A DNA stretch of 64,000 nucleotides from Pseudooceanicola sp. HF7 (lineage in GTDB: Bacteria; Pseudomonadota; Alphaproteobacteria; Rhodobacterales; Rhodobacteraceae), in contig NZ_JAATOW010000002.1 in NCBI RefSeq assembly GCF_011806405.1, forward strand, positions 1-64,000, written 5' to 3'. This document shows positions 29,607-44,983 of the stretch, one piece after another. Below the pieces are notes generated by a model. The model did not search any database. It was not told the DNA's origin and saw only the letters and a program-made list of their open reading frames with translations. Made by a program: the position numbers and the translations under genes. Position 1 is the first letter of the stretch, and the number at the start of each line of letters is the position of its first letter.

Positions 29607-30896
29607 TCAGAAGCCGAAGAGCCGGGGTAGCCAGAGCACGGTTCCCGGAACGAATGTGATCACCAGAAGCACCAGCACAAGGATGCCGATGAAGACCCAG
29701 ATCTCTCCGATCACCTCGCGCAGGGGGACGTCACCCAGCTTGGAGAGGGTGAAGAGCAGCATCCCGAAGGGTGGGGTCACGAGGCCGATCATGATGTTGA
29801 CCGTCATCAGCACGCCGAAATGCACCGGGTCGATGCCCAGCAGGCGGACCGTGGGCAGCAGCATGGGCACGAAGACCAGGATCAGCGTCCCGGTATCGAC
29901 CAGGCAGCCAAGCAGCAGGAAGATCAGGTTGATGCTGAGCAGGAAGCCGATCTGCCCGAAGCCGGCGGCCTCGATCCAGGCGGCCAGATCGCGGTCCAGG
30001 CGTTCGGCTGTGATGGCGTAGTTCATGATGTAGGCGCCCGCGATCAGCAGCATGACCGAGGAGGAGGTGCGCATGCTTTCGGTGATCGCGGTCCAGAAGC
30101 TGTTCCAGCTGATCGCCCGGTAGACCACCACGCCCAGGAACAGGGCATAGGCGGCGGCGACCGCGGCCGCTTCCGTCGGGGTGAAGACGCCGGTCCAGAT
30201 CCCGCCCAGAAGCACGACGGGGATGGACATGGGGATCACCGCGCGACCCAGAAGCGGGCCCAGCTCCTTGCAGGGCAGGCGGGTGCCCTTCGGCAGGTTG
30301 CGGCGCTTGGCCATGAGGGCCAGGCCGATCATCAGCGCAAAGCCCAGCATGAGTCCCGGAACGATCCCGCCCAGGAACAGGGCCCCGACGGAGGCGCCGG
30401 AGTTCAGCGCGTAGAGGATCATCGGCACGGAGGGCGGGATGATTGGCGCGATGACGGCGGCGGCGGCGGTCAGCGCGGTGGCGAAACCGGCCCGGAAGCC
30501 GCCGATGTCCCGCATCATCTTCAGCGCGATCAGGTTTGGCCCCGCGGCATCGGCCAAAGCCGAACCGCTCATGGAGGAGAACAGCATGGAGGTCAGCACG
30601 GTGACGTGCCCCAGACCGCCCGGCAGCCAGCCGACAACCGCGTCAGCCGCTTTCCAGAGCCGTTCGGCGATGGAACCGGCCGTCATGATGTTGGCGGCCA
30701 GGATGAACATGGGCACGGCCAGCAGGACGTAGCTGCCGTAGAGCGAGTTCATCACCTGGTCGGTGACGATTCCGAGGTCCTGCCCGGTGACGGCAAGGTA
30801 GGCAAAGCCAGAGACCAGCATGGAGACGGCGATGGGCACCCGTGCCAGCGCCAGCAAGGCGAAGGCCAGGACGAGCGTTGTCAGGCCGATACTCAT
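29607..30896 (-). CDS. dctM: TRAP transporter large permease (DctM family)
   Basis: 429 residues from the ATG at 30896; the longer open frame beyond it runs through dctQ and is not coding. Twelve or so hydrophobic segments. The SGSALADAAGPNLIALKMM and PPSVPMILYALNSG regions are typical of DctM-like large permeases. It overlaps dctQ by four bases. Confidence 0.92.
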   Translation of the reverse strand: MSIGLTTLVLAFALLALARVPIAVSMLVSGFAYLAVTGQDLGIVTDQVMNSLYGSYVLLAVPMFILAANIMTAGSIAERLWKAADAVVGWLPGGLGHVTVLTSMLFSSMSGSALADAAGPNLIALKMMRDIGGFRAGFATALTAAAAVIAPIIPPSVPMILYALNSGASVGALFLGGIVPGLMLGFALMIGLALMAKRRNLPKGTRLPCKELGPLLGRAVIPMSIPVVLLGGIWTGVFTPTEAAAVAAAYALFLGVVVYRAISWNSFWTAITESMRTSSSVMLLIAGAYIMNYAITAERLDRDLAAWIEAAGFGQIGFLLSINLIFLLLGCLVDTGTLILVFVPMLLPTVRLLGIDPVHFGVLMTVNIMIGLVTPPFGMLLFTLSKLGDVPLREVIGEIWVFIGILVLVLLVITFVPGTVLWLPRLFGF

Positions 30897-31408
30897 TTCG
30901 CCACCCTGCCGGATCTGAAGATGACCGCCTGGCGCGCGGCCTCGATCACCAGCTTGACGCCCAGCCCGCCCTGAAGAACGGCGAAACAGGCATAGAGCTG
31001 GTTGAGAGGGATGCGCATGACGGTTGTCTTCTCCCGCCAGAGGAAGGCGATGTAATCGATGGTGAAGGGCAGGGCGGCCAGCAGGATCCCCCCGGCCACC
31101 AGTGAGCCAAGCCCGACCAGAAGCGCGGTGGCGCGCGGCGGCAGAAGGCTGGCCAGCAGGTCGAAGGCCACGTGTTCCTCCAGCCGCACGGCCAGCGAGG
31201 CGCCGATGGTGATGACCCAGAGGTAGATGACGATGGCCAGTTCCTCGCTCGTGTGGGAGGGATCGCGCAGCAGGTAACGGCAGACGACGGTCCAGATGAA
31301 GGCGCCGCTGACCGCGATGAAGCCAAGCGAGGTCAGGATTTCCGCCCCTCGCTGGAGCCAAACGCCGGCCCTTTCGAGCCGGCGCAGAAAGGTGCTCTGA
31401 GACGTCAT
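30893..31408 (-). CDS. dctQ: TRAP transporter small permease (DctQ family)
   Basis: 171 residues with four hydrophobic segments and the conserved SEELAIVIYLWVITIGAS region between helices 2 and 3. It partners DctM and DctP for secondary, sodium-driven uptake of an organic acid. Confidence 0.9.
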   Translation of the reverse strand: MTSQSTFLRRLERAGVWLQRGAEILTSLGFIAVSGAFIWTVVCRYLLRDPSHTSEELAIVIYLWVITIGASLAVRLEEHVAFDLLASLLPPRATALLVGLGSLVAGGILLAALPFTIDYIAFLWREKTTVMRIPLNQLYACFAVLQGGLGVKLVIEAARQAVIFRSGRVAK

Positions 31409-31415
31409 GGGAAGG

Positions 31416-32405
31416 TCAGTCGCCCATGGCCTGGTGCATCAGGTCCTGGTCCCATTCGGCAGCCAGGTCAGAGGCGCCGTAGACTTCGTCGGCCTTGGCG
31501 TGGAAGGGCGCCAGGTCGATGGCATCGACGCGCAGACCTTCCGATTTCAGGATATCAGCCACCTTGGCCTCATCCGCCAGGCGGGCGCTGTTGTTCTCTT
31601 CCGCGGCTTCCAGGGCGGCGCTTTGCACGATCTCCTGTTGCTCCGGGGTCATGTCGTCCCAGACCGGCTTGGCGATAGCGTAAAAGACCGGCTGCACCAG
31701 GTGAGAGGTCAGCACGACCTGTTTCGTCACCTCGTCGAATTTCGCGGCCTTGAGGATGGAGAGCGGGTTTTCCTGCCCGTCCACCGCGCCTGTCTGCAGC
31801 GCGACGTAGGTTTCAGACATCGCCATGGGGGTCGGAGAGACACCCAGGCTTTCGCCCAGAAGCAGCCATTCGGGGGATGCGGGCATGCGCACCTGAACGC
31901 CTGTCAGGTCCTCGGGGCCGGTCACGTCGATGGCGTCGCGCAGGTTCAGCTGGCGGGAGCCCAGGTAGGCGACCGACAGGATCTCGATCCCCATTTCCTC
32001 GGCCGTGGCGGCCTTCAGCGCGTCACCCACGGGACCGTTCATCGCGGCCATCATCTGGTCGTAATCAGCAAAGAGGAAAGCGCGGTTCAGGAAACCGAAG
32101 CTGGGCACCTGGGAAGAGACCTCGAAGGTGTTCATCGTCGACATTTCCAGGTTGCCGCGCTGCAGGGCCGGGACCTCTGCGCCCTGACGGATCAGCGAGG
32201 CGCCGGGGTAGACCTCCACCGTGACGCCGATATCGGCCTCCGCGACCTTGTCGGCGAAACTTTCCATGGATTTGGCCAGGAAGTCCGCGGCGGGTCCGGC
32301 GGTCGAGAAACGTAGGGTGACGTCATCGGCGAGGGCGGTGCTGGCCATCAGGGCCGCCGTACCAAGGGCGGCCAGGCGGGCCAGCAGGGGGGTAGCGCGT
32401 GTCAT
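31416..32405 (-). CDS. dctP: TRAP transporter substrate-binding protein (DctP family)
   Basis: 329 residues from the ATG at 32405, after an AAGGAG site. Signal peptide ends near ALAD (residue 26). The conserved Arg that salt-bridges the ligand carboxylate is in GVQVRMPASPEW, and the QENPLSILKAAKF segment is typical. The ligand is therefore probably a carboxylate. Divergent from the GntR regulator, with an operator-like repeat in between. Confidence 0.9.
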   Translation of the reverse strand: MTRATPLLARLAALGTAALMASTALADDVTLRFSTAGPAADFLAKSMESFADKVAEADIGVTVEVYPGASLIRQGAEVPALQRGNLEMSTMNTFEVSSQVPSFGFLNRAFLFADYDQMMAAMNGPVGDALKAATAEEMGIEILSVAYLGSRQLNLRDAIDVTGPEDLTGVQVRMPASPEWLLLGESLGVSPTPMAMSETYVALQTGAVDGQENPLSILKAAKFDEVTKQVVLTSHLVQPVFYAIAKPVWDDMTPEQQEIVQSAALEAAEENNSARLADEAKVADILKSEGLRVDAIDLAPFHAKADEVYGASDLAAEWDQDLMHQAMGD

Positions 32406-32515
32406 GGGGAACTCCTTGTTGGGGTCGTGGTTCACGGCCGGAAGCGGGGTTTGCCTCTCTGGATCCGGCCGACTGCGCTCAAGCTATGTGCGGCTTTGCC
32501 GTTCGGTCAACAGGA

Positions 32516-33310: not shown

Positions 33311-34915
33311 TCAGGCGGCGGCGCGCGGCGCTGTCTGCAAGGTTTGCGCGATCTGGCGCACCAGCCAGAGCATGCGTTCGAACAGGGCGGTGGCGTAGAA
33401 GATCGCGGCTTCCTCATCCAGACCGGCACGCGCGCCTTCCTGGAAGGCCACGCGGATCTTCTCCATCATCTCGCCGCGATCTGACGTCAGGGACATCAGC
33501 ATCTCTGTCTCGAATGCATCGCCGCTGACCCAGGCGTCCTGGGCCGTGAGCAGGATCACACTGAGGGATTCCGTCAGCCTGTCGATCAGCTGCGCGCCGC
33601 GTCCCGTGAAGCCGGTCTTCCGGTGCAGGTCTATGAACTTGGCAACGCTTTCCTCCAGCGCATCCAGCTGTTCCTGGCGGCGTTCGAGGGTCAGCACCTC
33701 TTTCGTGGTCTCACGGTCCAGTTCCCGGTTCACGATCTCTGCGATGAAGGTGCTGATTTCCGGGCGCAGCCTTTGCATGCCCTCGTGCAGGGCGTCCGGA
33801 TCATCGTATTCGCCCCAGGTCTGGTCCGTGCGCACGCAGTCCAGAAGCTGGATGGTCAGGTTCAGCAGGCGAAGCTGTTCCCGCGCGGCCAGTTCCGTGG
33901 CGGTTTCCGGGACATCCAGCGCCTCGTCATGGATGTAGGCGGGGCGGGAGATATCCTCTGACTGGGTCGGCGGCTCGATCCGGTCCAGTACGCCTTCGAT
34001 CCAAGGTAGCAGGATCAGCGCGGCCAGCCAGCACAGCACCATGTTTGCCAGGAAGAGCAGGGCAACCCGTTGGGAGGGCGAGCTGGTGAGCGCCTCGAAG
34101 TGCTGCAGGATTGCCCCGTCGTTCAGCCCGGAATCGATCAGTAGCAGCCCCGCCATGCTGCATCCCGAGATCAGGTTGATGATGCCCTGGAAGACGATGA
34201 CCTGGCGCGGCGCGCCCTGCAGGGTGGAGGACAGGAACATGCCGGCCAGCGCCACGCCCGGGCCGCAACCGCAGATCAGCAGCATCGCCTGAAGCTCTGT
34301 GAAGATGCCGCTGGCCTGCAGCGTGATGGCGATTACCCCGATGGCCGAGGAGCTCTGGATGAACATCCGGCAGGCGGCGCCCAGCAGAAGCGCGGCCACG
34401 GCCCAGTCCTGAAGCAGGGCGGCCAGCGCGATAAAGCCGGGCATCTGGGGCAGGGGGGCGAAGCCCTGTTTCATCAGGTCCAGCCCGAAGAACAGCAACC
34501 CGATGGAGAAGAGCGCCCCGAAGACCGACGACAGGCGCACCGCGATCCTGAAGTTGATCGCCAGCCCGGTCAGCCCGATGATGTAGAGGATCGCCAGCCG
34601 CAGGTCGATCGCGGCCAGGAAGACCAGCACGGCGGTGCCGATGTTGGAGGCTGCGACCACCAGCAGCGCGCGCCGGACCGGGATCAGGCCGGTGGCGATC
34701 AGCCCCGAAAGGATGAAGGCCACGACCGAGGCGCTTTGCGAAATGGCCCCAGCCAGCACGCCGGTAAGCGTTCCCAGAACCGGGTTGCCGGTTGTTCGTG
34801 CCAGCATCTTGCGCAGGCGCCGGCCGCTCATGCGCTGGAGTTGCCCTTTCACGCCGGCGACGCCGGTGAAGAAGAGGCTCAGACCTGCAAGGAACAGGGC
34901 GAGAAGCTCGACCAT
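33311..34915 (-). CDS. Na/Pi cotransporter family protein with C-terminal PhoU-like domain
   Basis: 534 residues. Two inverted NptA-type repeats are seen, with the QSAS (AISQSASVVAF) and QSSS (FIQSSSAIGVI) motifs that bind phosphate in the sodium/phosphate symporter family. Membrane segments end at about residue 320. The remaining 200 residues are charged and helical, with a PhoU-like look. Likely sodium-coupled phosphate transport or phosphate homeostasis. A 19-base gap to the upstream receptor-like gene suggests one operon. Confidence 0.87.
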   Translation of the reverse strand: MVELLALFLAGLSLFFTGVAGVKGQLQRMSGRRLRKMLARTTGNPVLGTLTGVLAGAISQSASVVAFILSGLIATGLIPVRRALLVVAASNIGTAVLVFLAAIDLRLAILYIIGLTGLAINFRIAVRLSSVFGALFSIGLLFFGLDLMKQGFAPLPQMPGFIALAALLQDWAVAALLLGAACRMFIQSSSAIGVIAITLQASGIFTELQAMLLICGCGPGVALAGMFLSSTLQGAPRQVIVFQGIINLISGCSMAGLLLIDSGLNDGAILQHFEALTSSPSQRVALLFLANMVLCWLAALILLPWIEGVLDRIEPPTQSEDISRPAYIHDEALDVPETATELAAREQLRLLNLTIQLLDCVRTDQTWGEYDDPDALHEGMQRLRPEISTFIAEIVNRELDRETTKEVLTLERRQEQLDALEESVAKFIDLHRKTGFTGRGAQLIDRLTESLSVILLTAQDAWVSGDAFETEMLMSLTSDRGEMMEKIRVAFQEGARAGLDEEAAIFYATALFERMLWLVRQIAQTLQTAPRAAA

Positions 34916-34934: not shown

Positions 34935-35597
34935 TTATGTGCGGCCGCGTTGACGCAGGCGCCAGACCAGCAGGATGACCATCAGCAGGACAAGGCCCGT
35001 CGCCAAGCTGGTGAAAAGCCGGGCACGTTCAAAATGCTCATCGAGGGCGGAGGTGATTTTTGCAACGCGCGCCTGTTCGACAGCCAGGATCTGATCGGCG
35101 GCGGTATCGATGCGCTGTGTCAGATCCTGGTCAATGCCTCGCACGGACCGATCGACCGCGAAACCGGAAGCCGGATTGTCGGGATCGAAACGCTCCATCG
35201 CGTCGGAATAGAGTTCGCCCAAGCGAGCGTGCTCTTCCAGGATCGCGGCAATTTCATCGTGCAGCCCGGGATCGAAGGTTGGAAATGCAAGAACCGCAGA
35301 GAGATCTTCCTGAACCAGATCAGCCTGTTGCCTGAAGCGGTTAATGTAGCTTTCGTAATCTTCGGCATTGTGTCCGCGCAGCAGGAAGTTCTTCCAATGC
35401 TGGACCTGGATCTTGAAATTGACCTGGGCGGAGCGCGCGTCATCCAGAAGCTCTGCACTTTGAACGGCCTGGTCCAGGGCCTTTTCGCTTTCGCTCTGCA
35501 TGTAGCTGGTGCTGAACAGACCGACGCCTGCCAGAAGCAGGACTGCGATGAAGAGCAGGCCCACGAAACGGGCGCTCGGCTGGGTTTCTCTGGGCAT
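34935..35597 (-). CDS. Receptor-like membrane protein: periplasmic helical bundle with no output domain
   Basis: 220 residues. A TM helix at about 10-30 and a second at 194-213 enclose about 160 residues of charged amphipathic helices that look like the four-helix-bundle ligand domain of chemoreceptors (4HB_MCP type). The protein ends with a short basic WRLRQRGRT tail: there is no HAMP, methyl-accepting, kinase or cyclase domain. The reading frame is clean, and the next gene starts 19 bases later, so this is not an obvious truncation. It may sense a ligand and act through a partner, possibly the co-transcribed Na/Pi transporter. Confidence 0.7.
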   Translation of the reverse strand: MPRETQPSARFVGLLFIAVLLLAGVGLFSTSYMQSESEKALDQAVQSAELLDDARSAQVNFKIQVQHWKNFLLRGHNAEDYESYINRFRQQADLVQEDLSAVLAFPTFDPGLHDEIAAILEEHARLGELYSDAMERFDPDNPASGFAVDRSVRGIDQDLTQRIDTAADQILAVEQARVAKITSALDEHFERARLFTSLATGLVLLMVILLVWRLRQRGRT

Positions 35598-35966
35598 GCG
35601 GGTCCAACTTGTATTTATGCATCATCGGTAAGGACAGCGGTCCCTCTATTCAAGAAACAATTCGGCGACAGGGGGGGTAAAGTTTCCCCTTGGGCATTCG
35701 CCCGGGTTTCGCCGCTTGGATGAATTATTCGAAGCGGCTGAAAATAATTGCAAAATCTCACGGCCAAATCATGCGCTTCCGGTCACTCAACTTGACGTGG
35801 CAGTCTATGTTGTGGAAGTTTCCTGCTCAGAAATGGTGTAGGATCGCCTCAGGCAGGCCGAATTGAGCGGCTGTCGTATTCCGTGCCCATTGGGGCTATT
35901 GCGGAATCACAGCGGCCAGAGCGATACGCGCCGGGGACAAGAATAGAATAATTCCTGTGGGGACCT
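35598..35966. promoter_or_regulatory. Divergent intergenic region before the partner-switching operon
   Basis: 369 bases of lower G+C than the neighbours. It holds a TTGACG hexamer (35792-35797) without a convincing -10 at standard spacing, a TAGAAT hexamer at 35944-35949 close to the STAS start, and a loose inverted repeat ATTCCG/CGGAAT (35878-35883, 35902-35907). The promoter of the nine-kilobase operon must be here, but I cannot fix its position. No gene is recognisable. Confidence 0.45.
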
Positions 35967-36314
35967 ATGAATATTACCGAGTACACGGATCGTGACGTTG
36001 CAGTGATGTCGATCAGCGGGCGGATCGATGGAACGACGTCAGCCGAAGCGGAAACCGCCATCCTGGCGCGGATCCCGTCGGTTCCCGCCCTGGTGCTGGA
36101 TCTTCAGCATGTCGATTATGTCAGCTCTGCCGGCCTTCGCGTCGTTCTCAAGGGGGCCAAGTCGGCCCGCTCGTCGGGCGCGCGTCTGGTGCTGGCGGGC
36201 CTGACGCCGCAGGTGCGGGAGGTCTTCGATATCAGCGGCTTCTCTTCCGTGCTCGAGATCCATGGGAGCACGCCGGAGGCGATCGCGGCCATCCTCAAGA
36301 CCGGCGGAAGCTGA
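35967..36314 (+). CDS. STAS-domain anti-sigma-factor antagonist (SpoIIAA/RsbV-like)
   Basis: 115 residues, a single STAS domain. The conserved phospho-acceptor serine lies in YVSSAGLRVVL, best fit S54 (the S-[SA]-G-L position). In partner switching, an HATPase kinase phosphorylates this serine and a PP2C phosphatase restores it; the unphosphorylated form binds the kinase. All three kinds of protein are encoded in this operon. Its stop overlaps the next start by one base (TGATG), so it is tightly coupled to the permease fusion. Confidence 0.88.
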   Translation: MNITEYTDRDVAVMSISGRIDGTTSAEAETAILARIPSVPALVLDLQHVDYVSSAGLRVVLKGAKSARSSGARLVLAGLTPQVREVFDISGFSSVLEIHGSTPEAIAAILKTGGS

Positions 36315-38110
36315 TGCCCGCGGCCGGAGGGGGGATGCGCCGGGCAGTCGACTGGCTGACCAGCGTTCCGATATCCGCACCCAAAGCACGTCCGGACGAC
36401 GTTCTTTACGGCACGGAAGACAGGCCTCCGGCAGGTGTGACGATGATCGCCGTGGTCCAGCAGGCCATGCTGATGCTGATGCTGCTGGTCTACGCCGTGA
36501 TCACCGGCGAACGGATGGGGCTTGATCCGGCAGGGGTCGTTCGCTTCACCAGCACATGTATTTTCGGCTTCGGCCTGTCCACGCTTCTGCAGGGGCTGCG
36601 CTCGCGCCTGACCCCGGGGATGCTGATGGTGGCCATTCCCAGCCCGGTGGCCTTCGGGACCTACATCGGGATCATCAGCGCCTGGGGGCCGTCGGCGGCC
36701 GTGGGCGCGGTCATCAGCGCCAATGTTATCATCCTGTTGATCACCCCGCAATTGCCCCGTCTGCGGGGATATTTCCCGCCAGAGGTGGCGGGCGTCGCGG
36801 TCTTCATGATCGGTGTGATGATCATTCCCGAGGGTATCCAGCGCAGCCTGTCGCCGGACGCGGCGGGGATCATCTCTGCCCCCTCCATGATCGCATCGGT
36901 CGTGACGCTGGCGGCGATCGTGCTCTGTTCGATCTGGGGCGGGGTGCGGCTGCGGGTCATGTCACTGATCGTGGGCTGCGGGATCGGCACGGTCATCGCC
37001 CTGTTGCTGGGCGCCTTCGATTTCTCCTCTCTCGACAACATCCCGGAGCTTGGCTTTTTCGCAACGCCCTTGCCCAGCCCGGCTGCGGCCTGGCCCACTT
37101 TCGTGCCGGCGGCGATCCTGGCCTATACTGTGATCGAGCTGGTGCACCTGATGGACCAGGTGGCCTCTGCGCTGACCATGGACAAGCTGTCGGACAAGAA
37201 CTGGGTGCGGGCGGACATGTCGATCACCGCGCGGTCCTCCATGGCCAATGCAATCGGCAACGTGGTCTGCGGCGCCCTTGGCACGCTGACCGGGGCGACC
37301 TCTACCGCGAACATCGGCCTGGCTCATGCCAGCGGGGTGATGTCGCGCTTCGTGGGGATCGGGACCGGTCTGCTGATGATGCTGCTCTCCTTCGTGCCCG
37401 TGGTGGCGCTGGTGATCGTCCTGACGCCGGGCCCCGTGGTGGGCGGCGTGCTGATCTACACCGCGGCCTTCATGATCATCGCCGGGATGGAGCTGGTGCT
37501 GTCGCGGATGATGAACTCCAAGCGGTCCTTCACCGTGGGCTTTTCCATCGTCATCGGCTTCACCGTCGTCACCCTGCCGGCGCTGGTGCAGAACCTGCCG
37601 GAATGGAGCCGGACGATTGCCGCGTCGGGCCTGACGGTTGCCGTGCTGACAGCCATCGTGCTGAACGCGCTGTTTCGCATCGGGACCAGCCGGACCGTCA
37701 CGCTGCAGTTCGAAGAGGGCACGCCCCGGGCCGTGCAGGCGGCAGAGCACCTGGAACACTGGGGTGCCGAATGGGGCGCGCGCCGCGAAGTAGTGATGCG
37801 CGGTGGCATGGCCGTGGGCGAGGCCCTGGAACTGCTGAACGATGGCGGTTTCATCAAGGGCGCCGTGGCGCTGACGACCCGCTTCGACGAGATCAACCTG
37901 CGCTGCACGATCACCTACGAGGGCGAAAAGCCCAGGCTTGAACAGACGGCTGCTCCGGACCTCGAGGCGCTTCTGAACGCAGAGGACGACGCCGCGCTTG
38001 ACGCTGGGTTGAGCGAGATGTCAACTAACCTCATCAGGCGCCTGGCCGACCGGGTCAGCGTTTCTTCCAAGGGAGGCAAGGCAAGCTTGCTTCTTGAGTT
38101 CAACCACTGA
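36314..38110 (+). CDS. NCS2-type permease fused to a degenerate HATPase-like domain
   Basis: 598 residues. Residues 42-455 form a UraA/xanthine-permease (NCS2, SLC23) membrane domain with 12 or more hydrophobic stretches, including the IELVHLMDQVAS segment and GATSTANIGLAHASGVMSRFV (about 327-347), the substrate-site helix of the family. Residues 458-598 are cytoplasmic. Their end (GLSEMSTNLIRRLADRVSV, then SSKGGKASLLLEF) parallels the G2-box end of the HATPase in the next gene (GGLGLHMVRRLSDRQDY). The N-box E-x-x-x-N and G1 D-x-G are poorly kept, so ATP binding is doubtful. It may bind the STAS protein. Permease identity is firm; the domain call is an inference from visual alignment. Confidence 0.78.
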   Translation: MPAAGGGMRRAVDWLTSVPISAPKARPDDVLYGTEDRPPAGVTMIAVVQQAMLMLMLLVYAVITGERMGLDPAGVVRFTSTCIFGFGLSTLLQGLRSRLTPGMLMVAIPSPVAFGTYIGIISAWGPSAAVGAVISANVIILLITPQLPRLRGYFPPEVAGVAVFMIGVMIIPEGIQRSLSPDAAGIISAPSMIASVVTLAAIVLCSIWGGVRLRVMSLIVGCGIGTVIALLLGAFDFSSLDNIPELGFFATPLPSPAAAWPTFVPAAILAYTVIELVHLMDQVASALTMDKLSDKNWVRADMSITARSSMANAIGNVVCGALGTLTGATSTANIGLAHASGVMSRFVGIGTGLLMMLLSFVPVVALVIVLTPGPVVGGVLIYTAAFMIIAGMELVLSRMMNSKRSFTVGFSIVIGFTVVTLPALVQNLPEWSRTIAASGLTVAVLTAIVLNALFRIGTSRTVTLQFEEGTPRAVQAAEHLEHWGAEWGARREVVMRGGMAVGEALELLNDGGFIKGAVALTTRFDEINLRCTITYEGEKPRLEQTAAPDLEALLNAEDDAALDAGLSEMSTNLIRRLADRVSVSSKGGKASLLLEFNH

Positions 38111-38159
38111 AGCGGGTTCGTGCCAGGCGCCGTCCAAGCGGTTGCCGGAAAGTTCTGTT

Positions 38160-39431
38160 ATGACGCAAGACCGGAACCATGACGCACCGCGCCGCTTTGA
38201 TCTGACCCTGCCGGCGCAGGCGGATCTGCTACCGCGCGTCAACGCGTGGCTTGAGGAAACGGGCCTGCCGGAAGAGGCCCCGCAAGCCATTGTCACCCGG
38301 ATCGAACTGGCTGTTGAGGAACTGTTCCTCAACCTGGCGCATCACGCCTATGCTGGGGCAGAGGGCGAAGCGCGGCTGGCCCTTCTGGAAAGCCCGGACG
38401 CCCTGACCCTGATCATCGAAGACGACGGGGACCCCTTCAACCCGCTTGATGCCGGGCCGGAACCGGACCTGGACATGGAGGTGGAGGACCGTGCCATCGG
38501 GGGGCTGGGCCTGCACATGGTGCGGCGCCTGTCGGACCGGCAGGACTACGAACGCGACGGCGGCACCAACCGCCTGACGCTGGTCTTTCGCACGGTCGAA
38601 CAGCCCGAGGGCGCGGAAGACGCCGCGCCCCAAGCCACCCAACAACCCGTTCCGACGCCAAAGCGCCGGCCCTCCGGTGGGCTGCATGCGCCGACGGCGC
38701 GGGAACGCAAGGGGGTCTTCTTTTCCTTCTTCCTGCGGATCCTGCTTCCGGTCGCGCTGATCATGACGGCCAGCCTGATCCTGGCCGCCGGGCTGAACGT
38801 GCTTCGCCTTGAACGCGCCTTCCAGGACGCCGCAGAGATCCGCTATGACTCCGTGGCCCGAGAGCTGAGCGACACCATCGAAAGCAGCTTCGGTGCCGGC
38901 CTGTCGCTGGAATCCAACCTGGCCGTACAGGTGGCCATCGACCGCAGCGCGCAGCTCTACGACGGGGCCATCCGCTTTTTCGTCACCGATCCAGAGGGCA
39001 CGGTGATCCACGCCAGCCAGGGGGCAGGGGATCCGCCCGCCGCCCTCACCGCGCCGGAGGGCGGAAGCGGGCTGTGGCATGCCTTGGCGCCGGATGACGT
39101 CATGACCGGACAGCCGCTGATAGTGCAGGGCAGGAGGATCGGCACGCTGGTTCTGGTCTTCCCCTCGCAGCGCCTTTTCGAAGTGACGGCCCAGTTGCGC
39201 CGCGACATCGCCTCTGCCGCGCCGCTGGTGGCGCTGATCTCTCTTCCGATCATCGCCCTGATCGCCCTGCTGGTGATGATCCCCTTCGACCGCCGTTTCC
39301 AGCACATGGCCGACGTGATGCATGACCTTGCCGACGGGATCGACCGGCCCGTGCCGCAAAGCGAAGGCCCGCTACTGCGTGCTGCTGCCTCGATCTCGGC
39401 CCGTTTGCGCGGAACGGAGCAGAAATCATGA
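38160..39431 (+). CDS. HATPase anti-sigma-kinase-like domain fused to a membrane sensor
   Basis: 423 residues from the ATG at 38160; an in-frame TTG at 38094 would overlap the previous gene and is less likely. Residues 12-145 are an RsbW/SpoIIAB-like ATPase with N-box ELAVEELFLN (49-58), G1 box EDDGDPFNP (87-95) and G2 box GGLGLHMVRRL (114-124). After a Pro-rich linker come TM1 (188-213), an extracytoplasmic ligand domain (214-350), TM2 (352-375) and a short HAMP-like tail. The kinase is at the N-terminus, ahead of the sensor, the reverse of ordinary sensor kinases. Likely substrate: the STAS protein encoded two genes upstream. Confidence 0.8.
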   Translation: MTQDRNHDAPRRFDLTLPAQADLLPRVNAWLEETGLPEEAPQAIVTRIELAVEELFLNLAHHAYAGAEGEARLALLESPDALTLIIEDDGDPFNPLDAGPEPDLDMEVEDRAIGGLGLHMVRRLSDRQDYERDGGTNRLTLVFRTVEQPEGAEDAAPQATQQPVPTPKRRPSGGLHAPTARERKGVFFSFFLRILLPVALIMTASLILAAGLNVLRLERAFQDAAEIRYDSVARELSDTIESSFGAGLSLESNLAVQVAIDRSAQLYDGAIRFFVTDPEGTVIHASQGAGDPPAALTAPEGGSGLWHALAPDDVMTGQPLIVQGRRIGTLVLVFPSQRLFEVTAQLRRDIASAAPLVALISLPIIALIALLVMIPFDRRFQHMADVMHDLADGIDRPVPQSEGPLLRAAASISARLRGTEQKS

Positions 39432-41521
39432 CCCGGCTTCTGGCCTGGCTGGCCGCCTCTGCCCTGGCCTCTGCGATCCTGGCGCCCTTCATGCTCTTCG
39501 GGGTCTATACCTTCGGCATCTACGAACAGGCCCTCTTGCCGCAATACGAGGAACGCGCCGAGGTCGTCGCCAGCGGGATCGAGCGCCGCCTGTCCCTGGG
39601 CCTGCGGCTGTTCGGGGACCTCGCCGCGCTGAGAGACGTCGACGACGTGCTGGTCAATGCCTCCCGAAACTCTCCGGAGACGGCCTTTATCGTCGTGACG
39701 GATGCCGCCGGGCAGGTGATCGCGCAGGACCCACGCGTCATTCCCGACCTGGAAGAGGTCATGGCGGGCGAGCAGGAAGAGGACCTGCCCGGGCTGCGCG
39801 CCTACCTCGAAGACAAGGTGGATGCCTTCTTCAATTCCTTCATCTCTTCGGACAAGATCGCCCGGGCCTCTCGCAGCTATATCGCTGAGAACTACCTGAT
39901 CACCCGCCTTCCCATCGGGGAAATGGAGGATCCGGCGGGCTACGTCTTCCTGGGCACGGACACGGACCAGCTGACCGCGCTGCGGCGCGACCTGACGGTA
40001 AACATGCTGATCGTCTTCGCGGCTGCCATGCTGCTTGGCTTTGAATGCCTGCTGCTGATCGCGGGGGTCAGCCTGTTGCGGCCCCTGACGGCCCTGCGCT
40101 ACCTGACGGAGCAACTGAGCGCCGGCGATCTGCGCCATACCGCCCGCGCATCGGGCCCCTTCGGTACGGCAGAGCTGATCCGCCAGACCAACCGCTTCAT
40201 CCGCAGTGCCATCACCCGGGCAGGGGGCACCCGCGCGCCCGAGGGACTGGACATGCCCGAAAGCGGTCATCCGACACTATGGCGTGCGCCGGTTGCCCAC
40301 CTGATCCGTCTGCCGCTGATCCTGTTCTTCCTAGCAGAGGCGATCCTGCGGCCCTCCCTGCCGCTGTTCCTGCAGGGCATCGTGCCGCTGCGTGGCGGTC
40401 CTCAGGATTTCCAGGTCGGTCTTGCCATGGCGGCCTTCCTGCTGGCCTCGCTGTTCGGGATCGTGCTGGGCGCGCGGTTCTGCAACCGCAGCCGGGTCAA
40501 GAGCGTCATCCTTATGGGGATCATCATCAGCGCCCTGGGCACCCTGGGCCATGTGCTGGTTGCCAATGTCTGGGAGGCCGTGCTGTTCCGTGGAATCGCG
40601 GGCCTGGGGTACGGCATCGTCTACGCGGCCGCCCAGGTCTATATCGTGGAGCATTCGGACAAGACCCGCCGCACGACCGGCTTCTCGCTTTTCTTCATCG
40701 CGGTGGTGGGGGCGGATATCGTGGGGCCGGCCATCGGCGGTATCCTGGCCGACCGGCTGGGCATGGACGCGGCCTTCCTGATGGCGACGACAGCACTGGC
40801 GCTGTCCTTCCTGACCACCTTCGGCATTCTGCCGTCCGAGAAACCGCTGCCCAAGCCGCCGCGCCCGGCCTTCAGGGAGCGTTTCGTGCCCACGATGGCG
40901 GTGCTGCGCAACCGTCGCTACATGGCGCTGATCTTCGGCATGGCGGTACCGGCGAAGCTGCTGCTGAATGGCGGGCTTTTCCTCTGCCTGCCGCTGGCCG
41001 TGGCCTCTGCCGGTGGTGGCGCCGCCGCCGCGGGCCAGCTGTTCATGATCTACGGGCTGGTGGTGCTGCTCAGCGCCTCCTGGATCGCGCGGGCGATCGA
41101 CAAGTGGCAGCTGGTGGCCCCCGTGGTCTGCATCGGTACGATCCTGTCGGCGCTATCGCTTGCCTTGCCGGAGCTGCTGGATGCCAGCTGGGCACTCATC
41201 CTCTGCGTGGCGCTCTTTGCCGCCGGGCAGGCCATGTCGGTGCCCTCGCAGATGTCCTTCCTGCTGCATCTCACGCCCCGTGAACAAGAGCGCTTCGGCG
41301 CCGCCACCGTCATCGGGCAGTATCGTTTCATGGAGCGGCTCGGCTCCCTCGCCGGGCCGCTGATCGGTGCCGCGCTCCTTGTCATCGTGTCGCCTACCCA
41401 GGCCCTGCTCATCCTCGGCCTTGCGGCCATGATGCTGGCCGGGGTGGCGAGCACCTATTTCCTGATCGTCGGCGAACGCGACGAAGAAGAGGCCATAGAT
41501 GAATTGCTTGTCCGCCCGTAA
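39428..41521 (+). CDS. Sensor-HAMP-MFS transporter fusion protein
   Basis: 697 residues, starting in the previous stop (ATGA). TM1 is at 5-27 and an extracytoplasmic domain at 28-190 (helical start, then a PAS/Cache-like FIVVTDAAGQVIAQDPRV strand pair at 87-103 and GYVFLGTD near 171). TM2 is at 191-215, followed by a HAMP-like LLRPLTALRYLTEQLSAGDL segment (216-235) and a 12-helix major facilitator transporter (about 290-690) with signature loops GARFCNRSRVK and GGILADRLGMD. A receptor front end joined to a transporter is very unusual. One continuous frame with even codon use argues against an assembly error. Confidence 0.8.
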   Translation: MTRLLAWLAASALASAILAPFMLFGVYTFGIYEQALLPQYEERAEVVASGIERRLSLGLRLFGDLAALRDVDDVLVNASRNSPETAFIVVTDAAGQVIAQDPRVIPDLEEVMAGEQEEDLPGLRAYLEDKVDAFFNSFISSDKIARASRSYIAENYLITRLPIGEMEDPAGYVFLGTDTDQLTALRRDLTVNMLIVFAAAMLLGFECLLLIAGVSLLRPLTALRYLTEQLSAGDLRHTARASGPFGTAELIRQTNRFIRSAITRAGGTRAPEGLDMPESGHPTLWRAPVAHLIRLPLILFFLAEAILRPSLPLFLQGIVPLRGGPQDFQVGLAMAAFLLASLFGIVLGARFCNRSRVKSVILMGIIISALGTLGHVLVANVWEAVLFRGIAGLGYGIVYAAAQVYIVEHSDKTRRTTGFSLFFIAVVGADIVGPAIGGILADRLGMDAAFLMATTALALSFLTTFGILPSEKPLPKPPRPAFRERFVPTMAVLRNRRYMALIFGMAVPAKLLLNGGLFLCLPLAVASAGGGAAAAGQLFMIYGLVVLLSASWIARAIDKWQLVAPVVCIGTILSALSLALPELLDASWALILCVALFAAGQAMSVPSQMSFLLHLTPREQERFGAATVIGQYRFMERLGSLAGPLIGAALLVIVSPTQALLILGLAAMMLAGVASTYFLIVGERDEEEAIDELLVRP

Positions 41522-42542
41522 GACCTTTCTGCGTTCCTGCACTGCCCTGCTGCTGGGGGCCGCGTCCCTGGTGGTGCAGGCGCCGGCTCAGGCACAGGAG
41601 GCGAAATCCATCTTCATGGTTCTCTGGCGTGGGGAAACGGAGGTGGAGCAGGGCTTTCGCGGCTACTTCGAAGAGCAGGGCCTGCCGGTGACCTACCAGA
41701 CCGTCTCTGTCGAGAGGGACGTGTCGAACATCCCCGAGATCTTGGAGCAGATCGAGGCCGCAGATCCAGACCTGGTCTATACCTGGGGCACGCCTGTCAC
41801 GCTGGCCATCGCCGGGCAGGATCCAAACCGGGCAGGCGGCGTGGAGTATCCCGCGCAGATCACCGACCGGCCCATCGTCTTTGCCATGGTGTCCCAGCCC
41901 GTCGACTCCGGCATCGTGGACGACACCCAGCTGAGCGCCCGCAACGTGACCGGCGTCAGCCATGTCGTTCCCATGGAAACGCAGGTTCAGGCGATGCAGG
42001 CCTATATGCCCGTCGACCGGATTGCGACTATCTACACGGATACAGAGCCGAACTCGATCCAGGCGGTGCAGGCGCTGAAATCCGTGGGCGAGGCTTACGG
42101 GCTGCGAGTGGATGCCTATACCGTGCCTCTGGATGCGCAGGGCCAGCCCGATCCGTCCTCCATCCCCGACCTGGTGGCAGAGGCCGCGGCGGCCGGCCCC
42201 CAGTTCCTGTACCTGGGCCCGGATTCCTTCCTTGGGGAATACGCCAGCGAGATTGCGGATGCTGCCAATGAGCTTGGCCTTGCAACCTTTGCCTCTACCG
42301 AACGGTCGCTTGCCTCTTCGGATGCGCTCTATGGTCTGGTCGCGCCCTATTACGACGTGGGCCGCTTCGCCGCGCAAAAGGCCGAAGCCATCCTGTTCGA
42401 GGGGGCTGATCCCGGCACGATCCCGGCGGAAACGCTGCCCAGCTTTTCCTATCGCGTCAGGCTGGACGTGGCGCAGCGGCTGGGCATCCTGCCCGCGCTT
42501 TCGCTGATGGATTACGCGGAAATCGTTGAGGGAACGCAGTAG
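41499..42542 (+). CDS. ABC-type substrate-binding protein (ABC_sub_bind family), orphan
   Basis: 347 residues, overlapping the MFS fusion by 23 bases. Signal peptide with cleavage near AQAQ (residue 33). The body resembles the TrpX/ABC_sub_bind periplasmic family (type I fold): IPEILEQIEAADPDLVYTWGTPV near 75-97 and FLYLGPDSFLGEYASEI. No ABC permease or ATPase is encoded beside it, so it may feed ligand information to the periplasmic domains of the neighbouring sensors rather than drive import. Confidence 0.8.
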   Translation: MNCLSARKTFLRSCTALLLGAASLVVQAPAQAQEAKSIFMVLWRGETEVEQGFRGYFEEQGLPVTYQTVSVERDVSNIPEILEQIEAADPDLVYTWGTPVTLAIAGQDPNRAGGVEYPAQITDRPIVFAMVSQPVDSGIVDDTQLSARNVTGVSHVVPMETQVQAMQAYMPVDRIATIYTDTEPNSIQAVQALKSVGEAYGLRVDAYTVPLDAQGQPDPSSIPDLVAEAAAAGPQFLYLGPDSFLGEYASEIADAANELGLATFASTERSLASSDALYGLVAPYYDVGRFAAQKAEAILFEGADPGTIPAETLPSFSYRVRLDVAQRLGILPALSLMDYAEIVEGTQ

Positions 42543-43229
42543 ATGTCACTTGAAGACGCCCTGCGTCAGCGTCTTAGCGCGACTTCCCTTCCCGAAGGCG
42601 GCCAGGTGACCCTGGCCGGTCCGGCGGAGTTCACCACGCTGGCTAACATCAACGCCGAAGCGGTCGCCTACACTGGCGAGGACATCTACGGCCGGCAGGA
42701 TGAGAGCTTCTTCGCCAGGATCCATGACGACGGCGCCGCGATCCTGTTGATCCATGAAAAGGGGCAGGCGGTGGGCTATTCCGTCGTCGGGCCTGCGGCC
42801 CGGATGACCGGGCTGTTCGCCGCGGAGACCGACAAGGGCCTGCTTTTCGGCACGGCTATGCGCGCTCAGGCGCGGGGAAGGGGCTGGCAGAGGTGCCTGA
42901 TCCGCCTGCGCAGTGCGGCGCTTTTTGATGCGGGCTTCAAGGCGGCGAAGGCCTTTGTCTCTCCCTGGAACCATGTCTCTCTTGGCAACCTGCTTGAGGA
43001 AGGCATGGCCGTGGTCAGCCACGATTTCAGTTACTACGGGCAGCACCGCTTCATTGTGGAAATGCCCGTCAACGGCTGGCCAGATAGCGCGCCTGGGGGC
43101 CAGAGCCTGACCTTGCCGCCCCAGGGTGCGATCGATGCGCATTGCGCGCTGCTGTCGCAGGGGTGGTCGGGACGGCAGGTGGATCGCATCTCTGCCACCC
43201 TGAGCTACTGCAGGTCCGCCACATGCTGA
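42543..43229 (+). CDS. GNAT-like acyltransferase domain protein
   Basis: 228 residues, starting immediately after the previous stop. The central part has the acetyl-CoA loop pattern QARGRGW (about 109-115), followed by a helix and the FVSPWNHVSLGNLLEEGM strand-helix typical of GNAT motif B. Catalytic residues are not evident. Its place between a binding protein and the phosphatase suggests it modifies a component or product of the same system. I do not recognise the subfamily. Confidence 0.65.
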   Translation: MSLEDALRQRLSATSLPEGGQVTLAGPAEFTTLANINAEAVAYTGEDIYGRQDESFFARIHDDGAAILLIHEKGQAVGYSVVGPAARMTGLFAAETDKGLLFGTAMRAQARGRGWQRCLIRLRSAALFDAGFKAAKAFVSPWNHVSLGNLLEEGMAVVSHDFSYYGQHRFIVEMPVNGWPDSAPGGQSLTLPPQGAIDAHCALLSQGWSGRQVDRISATLSYCRSATC

Positions 43230-44983
43230 AAACGGCGTCTCTTCGCGGTCGTATCGCCCTGATCACCGCCATTGCCTTGCTGATCGTGACGGCGATCATG
43301 CTGCTTTACGCGGAAGGCCGGGCGAAGCTTCTGCGCGAACGCTTCGCTGCCGACCAGCTGGCCAGCAACGCAGAGCTTCTGACCACCGTGATCGACCTGG
43401 ACGCGGCGCTTCTGCAGCGGATCGCGTCGGACCTTGCGCGTCAGCCCTCTGTCGATGCCTTGCTGGCCACCAGCGAAGAGGCCGCGATTGCGGAGATCCG
43501 TGACCTGGTGGCCGTGGCCGTGGATGCCACCGGGGCCCAGCTTGCCGTGACGGTGCTGGATCAGCGTGGCACGGTTGTCGCGCGTCTTGGCACGGCCCTG
43601 ATCGGGGAAGAGATGGAGAGTGACCGCGCCGCGAACGGGCTGAACATGACCCTGGAGGGCGACGTGCGCCTTGTCGCGGTGGAACCTGTCCGGCAGGGGA
43701 CGCGGGTGACTGGACGGATCATCGCCTCGCTCGATCTGCTAGATCGGACCGGGCGCTTCCTGAGCGGGGCAGAGGCGATCGGCATCAGCTCTCCCGGCGG
43801 GGTGCTTAGCATGAACCGCGCCGCCCCGGACCGACTGCGCGTGCTTTCGGAGAACTGCTGTACCGGAACCGCCACCAGCCTGTCCTTCCGGGACGATGGC
43901 GCGCGCTACGTGGCCGCCTTCATTCCCCTGCGCGACAACAGCGGGGCCTTGCTGGCCGATTTCGTCAGCCTGCGGGACGTGACCGCCTCAAGCCAGCGCC
44001 ACTTCACCTACGGGACCGTCGCGGCTGTCATGCTGCTGCTGGCCATCCTGCTGACGCTGGGAACGCTGATGCGGGTGTTGCGGGTCTCCTTCCGCCCTCT
44101 GGGCGCCGTGGTAAAGCTGCTCCAGCAGATGGAAAGCGGCTCCACCACGCTGACGATGAAGCCCATGCAGACCTCGGAAGAGATCCAGGCGCTGATCGAC
44201 ACGGTGGAGCGCGTGCGGGCCGGGCAAGAGGCACGGGACCGGCTGGTAAAGCTGGACAGCCAGCTGGCCGCCGCGCGCAACGTGCAGCAGTCGCTTGTCC
44301 CGTCGGAGTTCGACCTGACCCCGAAACTGTCGCTTTTCGGAGCGATGCAGCCGGCGGAAGAGGTTGGCGGCGATTTCTTCGACCTTTTCGAAATGCAGGA
44401 TGGCCGTATCGCGCTGCTGATCGCGGATGTCTCCGGCAAGGGGATCGGGCCTGCGCTCTTCGCGGCGCGCGCCTCCATGGTGCTCAGGGCCAATGCCAGC
44501 AAGTTCGATGACCTGTCCCGCATTGTTTCCGAAACCAACGATCAACTGTGCGAGCACAATACCGAAGACCTGTTCATCACGATGTTCTTCGCCGTGATCG
44601 ACCCGGAAACGGGGCAGGGCGAATGCGTGAACTGCGGCCACTGCCAGCCCTTCCTGATCCGCCCGGACAAAACGGCAGAGCATTTCACGCCCCCCAACAA
44701 CATCGTGCTGGGCGCCTTTGAGGGCTTCCCGTTTGAGCCCGCGAAGATCGCCATCGCGCCCGAGGATACCCTGCTGGTCTACAGCGACGGTTTCGACGAG
44801 GCCCAGACGGACAGCGGCGAACTGCTGGGGGACGAGCGTGCACGCCAGATGTCGGCGGCTTACGGGCAGACCGCACCGCAGGAACTGGTCGAGGGGCTGC
44901 AACGGGATATCGCGGCCTTCTCTGATGGCGCGCCGCAGGCGGATGACATTACCCTGCTGGCCGTGCGCCGGCGGATCGGGTGA
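43223..44983 (+). CDS. Membrane-bound SpoIIE/RsbU-type PP2C phosphatase with sensor and HAMP domains
   Basis: 586 residues from the ATG at 43223, overlapping the GNAT gene by 7 bases. TM1 is at 9-29, a large extracytoplasmic domain at 30-258 includes adjacent C212-C213, TM2 at 262-283, HAMP to about 340, a short coiled linker AARNVQQSLVP (350-360), and the PP2C domain at 365-586. Metal-binding motifs are intact: EVGGDFFDLF (380-389), ADVSGKG (401-407) and the terminal ADDITLLAVRR. It should dephosphorylate the STAS protein in response to a periplasmic signal, opposing the HATPase kinase. Confidence 0.9.
   Translation: MLKTASLRGRIALITAIALLIVTAIMLLYAEGRAKLLRERFAADQLASNAELLTTVIDLDAALLQRIASDLARQPSVDALLATSEEAAIAEIRDLVAVAVDATGAQLAVTVLDQRGTVVARLGTALIGEEMESDRAANGLNMTLEGDVRLVAVEPVRQGTRVTGRIIASLDLLDRTGRFLSGAEAIGISSPGGVLSMNRAAPDRLRVLSENCCTGTATSLSFRDDGARYVAAFIPLRDNSGALLADFVSLRDVTASSQRHFTYGTVAAVMLLLAILLTLGTLMRVLRVSFRPLGAVVKLLQQMESGSTTLTMKPMQTSEEIQALIDTVERVRAGQEARDRLVKLDSQLAAARNVQQSLVPSEFDLTPKLSLFGAMQPAEEVGGDFFDLFEMQDGRIALLIADVSGKGIGPALFAARASMVLRANASKFDDLSRIVSETNDQLCEHNTEDLFITMFFAVIDPETGQGECVNCGHCQPFLIRPDKTAEHFTPPNNIVLGAFEGFPFEPAKIAIAPEDTLLVYSDGFDEAQTDSGELLGDERARQMSAAYGQTAPQELVEGLQRDIAAFSDGAPQADDITLLAVRRRIG

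Follow-up and report, generated by a model that had tools for sequence, protein, structure and literature searches.

Most of what is known of partner switching concerns the control of transcription. The Rsb and SpoIIA systems (RsbV-RsbW-RsbU and SpoIIAA-AB-E) combine a STAS protein bearing a conserved serine with an RsbW-type kinase and a PP2C phosphatase. Here we describe a seven-gene operon of Pseudooceanicola sp. HF7, at positions 35967..44983 on the + strand of a 64,000-nt stretch of contig NZ_JAATOW010000002.1 (this whole stretch is called the window below), which shares these three components but, unlike Rsb and SpoIIA, has no sigma factor gene, anchors its kinase in the membrane, co-encodes transporters and a binding protein, and carries a second, dead RsbW domain on a permease. 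We see about an even chance that this operon encodes a partner-switching module, anchored in the membrane and coupled to transporters, in which the permease, and probably also a major facilitator superfamily (MFS) protein, acts as the output or co-sensor of the switch in place of a sigma factor.

Several other described systems resemble the locus in part. Members of the SLC26/SulP family share a related fold of 7+7 transmembrane (TM) segments with the NCS2 (SLC23) permease of the operon and have a cytoplasmic C-terminal domain that is important for transport, according to PMC6497670; whereas SLC26 proteins carry their STAS domain in cis, the window permease has an anti-sigma-like tail and the STAS protein is separate. 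A free STAS protein, MlaB, belongs to the MlaFEDB transporter complex, as stated in a paper on ABC transporter regulation (PMC7367683). MlaFEDB is an ABC transporter, whereas the window NCS2 protein is a secondary carrier. We know of no kinase/phosphatase pair for MlaFEDB. SiaABCD of Pseudomonas aeruginosa comprises a sensor PP2C, a kinase and a STAS-like protein and has a switch output other than a sigma factor (PMC7647112); it acts with the diguanylate cyclase SiaD and has no transporter. SiaABCD and MlaB are precedents for non-sigma outputs. Within the Rhodobacterales, RbaVWY of Rhodobacter capsulatus likewise performs partner switching with no cognate sigma factor found (PMC3999984), and both RbaV and SypA (PMC8256260) are described as STAS proteins lacking a known target. 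RbaY carries a REC domain, whereas the window phosphatase has membrane segments and gave no Pfam match to REC, and other contigs of the window genome hold additional STAS and RsbW-like genes. A second RsbW-like kinase gene and a second STAS gene lie at two contig ends (G000:C16:67421-67807 and G000:C72:13-306) and may represent one split Rba-like pair.

A complete switch is encoded together with transporters

The seven open reading frames all lie on the + strand and were all retained as genes by third-codon-position GC score (Table 1). Their junctions are tight, as a preliminary description made from the sequence alone had reported: the STAS and NCS2 genes overlap by 1 nt, a 49-nt gap precedes the kinase when counted from the ATG at 38160 (with a TTG start at 38094 the two genes would overlap), and the following junctions are a 4-nt overlap (kinase/MFS), a 23-nt overlap (MFS/binding protein), 0 nt (binding protein/GNAT) and a 7-nt overlap (GNAT/PP2C). 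Six of the seven proteins score above Pfam cut-offs (STAS, Xan_ur_permease, HATPase_c_2, MFS_1, ABC_sub_bind and SpoIIE), which upholds the family labels of that description apart from two. The GNAT label fell below the cut-off for the window protein itself (E 0.15, Pfam) and comes through relatives, with 7 of 18 aligned members (the window protein plus 17 relatives) matching PF00583 at E <=0.01, the best at 1.1e-6 and the window protein not among the seven. HAMP gave no Pfam match in the kinase (P0003), the MFS protein (P0004) or the phosphatase (P0007), and is hinted at by one relative of the MFS protein (L080; 23.1 bits, cut-off 25). The claims of a full kinase, antagonist and phosphatase set, of transporters as its companions and of a missing sigma factor also stood: neither Pfam nor NCBIfam matches revealed a sigma factor or DNA-binding protein among the seven genes, the flanks of relatives having received no systematic sigma factor search and unlinked sigma factors being possible.

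All three switch proteins retain the residues expected of their roles. Once L034, L035, L036 and L038 had been removed as duplicates, the acceptor column of the STAS alignment was serine in 32 of 32 copies and the motif aspartates of the phosphatase were aspartate in 33 of 33. The kinase has intact N, G1 and G2 motifs and TM segments at residues 194-212 and 356-374, and its only match at E <=0.001 among PDB sequences was RsbW (6m36/6m37). The phosphatase has TM segments at 11-29 and 265-283. Judged by its genes, the operon has the parts of a general partner-switching module, with a Ser-bearing STAS protein, a kinase with N, G1 and G2 motifs and an Asp-bearing PP2C.

The MFS part of P0004 resembles VMAT2, NorA and MdfA in an AlphaFold2 model (predicted template modelling score 0.73), the sensor part being weakly modelled (blocks with pLDDT down to 38). 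At three loci (L050, L056 and L061) the kinase, two sensor segments and the MFS transporter form one reading frame of 1124-1144 aa. The binding protein (P0005) reached 80 bits against the TrpX model, far below the cut-off of that model. A nucleobase, an amino acid (from the TrpX-like binding protein) and ammonium were considered as the sensed ligand, and the evidence is too thin to name one.

Table 1. Features of the operon and its surroundings, in window coordinates.
Feature	Position	Strand	Support
STAS protein (RsbV/SpoIIAA-like antagonist)	35967..36314	+	motif DYVSSAGLR; PF01740 63 bits (cut-off 22.6); TIGR00377 71 bits
NCS2 (SLC23) permease with C-terminal RsbW-like tail (P0002)	36314..38110	+	PF00860 Xan_ur_permease 113 bits (cut-off 27)
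Pseudokinase tail of the permease, anti-sigma-factor fold lacking ATP motifs	37664..38107	+	profile and structure comparison, motif alignment
RsbW-type serine kinase domain, then two TM segments and extracytoplasmic region (P0003)	38160..39431	+	HATPase_c_2 PF13581 79 bits (cut-off 27.4)
Membrane sensor segment fused to MFS transporter (P0004)	39428..41521	+	MFS_1 120 bits (cut-off 33.4)
Orphan periplasmic binding protein, ABC_sub_bind (P0005)	41499..42542	+	PF04392 84 bits (cut-off 25.9)
GNAT-like protein	42543..43229	+	consensus RGxGWQ motif; relatives match PF00583
Membrane sensor and SpoIIE-type PP2C phosphatase (P0007)	43223..44983	+	PF07228 162 bits (cut-off 25)
Intergenic region between divergent units, presumed operon promoter (369 bp)	35598..35966	.	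position only
2-TM protein with no assigned family, divergent neighbour, possible associate	34935..35597	-	TM 11-29 and 194-212
Na/Pi cotransporter homologue, divergent neighbour, possible associate	33311..34915	-	PF02690 106 bits

The permease carries a pseudokinase tail

The most surprising and most testable part of the locus is the dead anti-sigma tail of the permease. Pfam HATPase_c_2 gives this tail only 14.9 bits (cut-off 27.4), yet profile and structure comparison confirmed the HATPase-like assignment of the preliminary description as an RsbW-family domain, and in the structure comparison the tail resembled STAS-binding anti-sigma factors more than the other Bergerat-fold chains compared. 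A search of PDB sequences with the tail profile returned two flagellin matches at E ~1. The N-box Asn is kept in 0 of 21 tails and the G1 Asp in 0 of 21, losses that rule out the tail as an active second kinase. By fold comparison and motif alignment the tail is thus assigned as a true RsbW/SpoIIAB-family fold and a pseudokinase, and because it lacks the ATP motifs it is a candidate docking site rather than a kinase.

The transport domain is also divergent. Nucleobases are bound in the NCS2/SLC23 family by a Glu of TM8 together with a [Q/E/P]-N-x-G motif. Uric acid-xanthine and uracil permeases are matches of P0002 in the PDB, and P0002 has Asp at the TM8 Glu position and an A-N-I-G motif (as aligned by MAFFT, which we used; phmmer and MAFFT differ at the TM8 position, giving His or Asp). 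A complete motif was found in 0 of the 28 tailed NCS2 copies defined below, the first residue being other than Q, E or P in 27; the exception, L117, has Pro but Ser in place of Asn. A conventional NCS2 permease encoded elsewhere in the genome scores 281 bits with Q-N-V-G intact. The alignments place P0002, with Ala in place of the Gln of the conventional copy, in a divergent NCS2 subfamily. With that copy present elsewhere and this residue changed, P0002 is ruled out as simply the ordinary purine permease of the cell. Searching the genome contigs with P0002 yielded 35 pattern matches, none of them confirmed.

The switch-transporter core is conserved and the permease gene is not part of it

When 198 genomes of the family were searched with the kinase, ten regions were examined (L034-L043). 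Three of them (L034-L036) contain the same block lacking the NCS2 gene, L038 holds a rearranged form, and L037 and L039-L043 turned out to be different loci, which encode partner-switching proteins and in which neither the MFS protein nor the binding protein has a match. A profile of the binding protein (A1) then gave 33 named loci, from which domain maps were made; counts over 29 loci exclude L045, L049, L056 and L069, the contigs of the query seeds L035, L034, L036 and L038. Copies of P0005 that are 53-78% identical occur in 19 of the 33 loci (L044-L061 and L076). The order STAS-kinase-MFS-binding protein-(GNAT)-PP2C is kept in 14/33 loci (11/29 excluding query seeds), all three switch genes are present in 19/33 (15/29), and at least two in 24/33 (20/29). 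The 14 ordered loci come from metagenome-assembled genomes (MAGs) labelled Rhodobacteraceae or as genera of that family, one of the 14 being labelled 'alpha proteobacterium', and many are close kin. The module is also seen in rearranged form, in other alphaproteobacteria (L062-L064) and in betaproteobacteria (L066, L068, L070 and L072).

Given that the gene order, NCS2 aside, is kept in other genomes, the locus is not a chance assembly. Conservation in order, which the preliminary description had proposed as a check for all seven families, held for the 14 loci above and failed for NCS2, found at one of the 33 loci and missing even from the closest relative (L044, binding protein 78% identical); in most relatives the genes were not scattered. 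The seven genes as one conserved unit are thus ruled out, the NCS2 gene lying outside the conserved core. From these comparisons, the core lacking NCS2 is real and conserved, and the NCS2 gene appears to belong to a different, separately recurring association.

Tailed permeases recur beside STAS genes in distant lineages

Among 385 genomes of the class, we found 21 tailed NCS2 genes in 14 genomes besides the window genome itself, and adding the window, L068, L090 and the plasmid records L086-L088 gave the set of 28. A STAS gene is found no more than 5 kb from seven of these, which belong to six genomes (the window, Comamonas L068, Thiodictyon L087, G287, G735 and G668) scattered over the alpha-, beta- and gammaproteobacteria and differing in arrangement. 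At L119 (G668) one strand reads DctP, hybrid histidine kinase, REC (by eye), REC-PP2C, RsbW-like kinase, STAS and tailed NCS2, with no match to the MFS or binding-protein profiles. At L090 (G287) the tailed NCS2, STAS and kinase genes share one strand, the other carrying a Na/Pi cotransporter, a hybrid kinase and a PP2C gene (REC part by eye). Of the 21 tailed genes from the class genomes, 3 (at two places) lie near a STAS gene against ~0.3 expected, if the STAS-match density of the window genome is assumed for all genomes.

Neighbouring genes

Upstream of the operon, promoter scanning of the divergent intergenic region gave a result no better than shuffles, and a terminator scan was likewise uninformative. 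The 2-TM protein matched nothing above the Pfam cut-offs and nothing in NCBIfam, and tblastn found no relative in loci L034-L080. Relatives of the Na/Pi cotransporter adjoin tailed NCS2, STAS and kinase genes at L090:10538-12130 and, as a shortened remnant, a tailed NCS2 gene at L087:9219-9764 (Thiodictyon). TRAP transporter genes for DctM and DctP occupy window positions 29607-32435 (- strand); by clustering, L048, L051 and L076 have homologues of both (clusters C11 and C14) in the vicinity of the module, and L044 has one of DctM.

Elsewhere, ABC exporter and HlyD genes stand beside the MFS-binding protein-switch module (L062:13482-20441 by Pfam, L069:13394-20298 by clustering, and L038:3-1775), accompanied by small peptides that resemble GG-leader peptides by eye, and in Thiodictyon the switch genes have an annotated NHLP leader peptide as a neighbour (L087:7634-7954). 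These neighbours raise a possible link of the module to export of ribosomally synthesized and post-translationally modified peptides. A VgrG-like gene follows the sensor-MFS and binding-protein genes on a Vibrio plasmid (L078:11050-16290), and on Nitratidesulfovibrio pDVUL01 (L079:7979-14959) the same pair lies beside an annotated type III secretion chaperone; signs of a possible connection with secretion, from an NHLM-type exporter, VgrG and the type III neighbours on plasmids, were seen in few lineages. By eye and clustering (C6/C7), genes resembling GlnE (glutamine synthetase adenylyltransferase) are found upstream of the module in L047, L049, L056, L058 and L061, and genes resembling the ammonium transporter Amt in L048, L051, L052, L054 and L076. 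Such borders in many MAG loci hint at nitrogen.

Discussion

We propose that the orphan binding protein would present a ligand to which the membrane sensor parts of kinase, phosphatase and MFS protein respond, and that kinase and phosphatase would set the phosphorylation of a single STAS serine. In its unphosphorylated form the STAS protein would be released from the kinase and bind the dead RsbW-like tail of the NCS2 permease, and the permease would serve as output or co-sensor of the switch instead of a sigma factor, with a presumed effect on transport; the MFS protein, being fused to the kinase in some relatives, probably acts likewise. The observations beneath this proposal are the gene set, its intact motifs and kept order, the kinase-MFS fusions, the fold and motif loss of the tail, and the recurrence of tailed NCS2 genes beside STAS genes.

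Several observations weigh against this reading. The NCS2 gene is absent from 28 of the 29 binding-protein loci, and many of these loci are near-identical MAGs that are not independent. Six loci (L046, L065, L067, L071, L073 and L074) have the MFS and binding-protein genes and lack every switch gene over the stretch read (flanks of ~3 to 10 kb per side), as do L055 and L075, which are short contigs, and L060 has PP2C as its sole switch gene. After the MFS and binding-protein genes of L067, a Hanks-type Ser/Thr kinase with dCache and HAMP (L067:10999-13452) replaces the partner-switching genes. By clustering, L071:11020-13476 encodes a homologue of that kinase. The free kinase of L061 also lacks the G1 Asp, so a pattern of kinases dead when fused and live when free is not clean. 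Genes that by eye resemble an extracytoplasmic function (ECF) sigma factor and ChrR lie 0.3 kb behind the PP2C gene of L036 on the opposite strand, and in Azospirillum thermophilum a sigma/ChrR pair lies 1.2 kb from a tailed NCS2 gene that has no STAS gene beside it. The main weakness is that for 21 of the 28 tailed NCS2 genes the stretch read shows neither a STAS nor a kinase nor a PP2C gene within 5 kb (L117 reaching a contig end on one side), so that the tail may have a partner other than STAS. Given the small sample, and since it was the switch itself that led to the window and L068, the association of STAS with tailed NCS2 is suggestive rather than strong.

Those 21 unlinked genes, and the lack of NCS2 in L044, are what might be expected if the tail were an ancient domain with a structural or dimerising role in one NCS2 subfamily, had no relation to STAS and stood in the operon through incidental co-transcription. 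We regard this as quite unlikely, as it sits poorly with STAS adjacency in six alpha-, beta- and gammaproteobacterial genomes of differing arrangement and with the match of the tail to STAS-binding anti-sigma factors above other Bergerat-fold chains. It is also possible, though on balance we doubt it, that the transporters are inputs, the MFS and NCS2 proteins being transceptors whose conformation tunes the kinase and phosphatase while the target of the STAS protein or kinase is transcriptional and encoded elsewhere, be it a sigma factor or some other protein, as discussed for RbaV. Kinase-MFS fusions do put a kinase on a transporter, the degenerate substrate motif of all 28 tailed permeases is what a receptor might show, and the Rba work (PMC3999984) found no cognate sigma factor and suggests an unidentified target. 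Such a scheme gains nothing from the seven genes, none of which encodes a sigma factor or DNA-binding protein (the flanks of relatives having had no systematic search), and leaves unexplained why the tail is a dead anti-sigma domain and not an active kinase.

Under the transporter-coupled reading that we prefer, we tentatively suggest, with somewhat less assurance, that the locus is a counterpart of SLC26 built in trans: a permease of SLC23 fold whose dead anti-sigma dock would capture only unphosphorylated STAS protein, letting kinase and phosphatase gate the transporter directly with no sigma factor, the RsbW-like domain on the sensor-MFS proteins of L050, L056 and L061 being a parallel solution. 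Among the matches listed in a search of the open-licence PMC literature, none described an NCS2 or MFS transporter under the control of partner switching. Transporters replacing the sigma factor as the co-encoded partner constitute a new form of partner switching, and a permease that bears a dead anti-sigma domain and is encoded next to its own STAS protein, kinase and phosphatase provides a concrete, testable non-transcriptional target. If the proposal is true, one system would join the two uses of STAS, as the antagonist of an anti-sigma factor and as a domain of SLC26 transporters.

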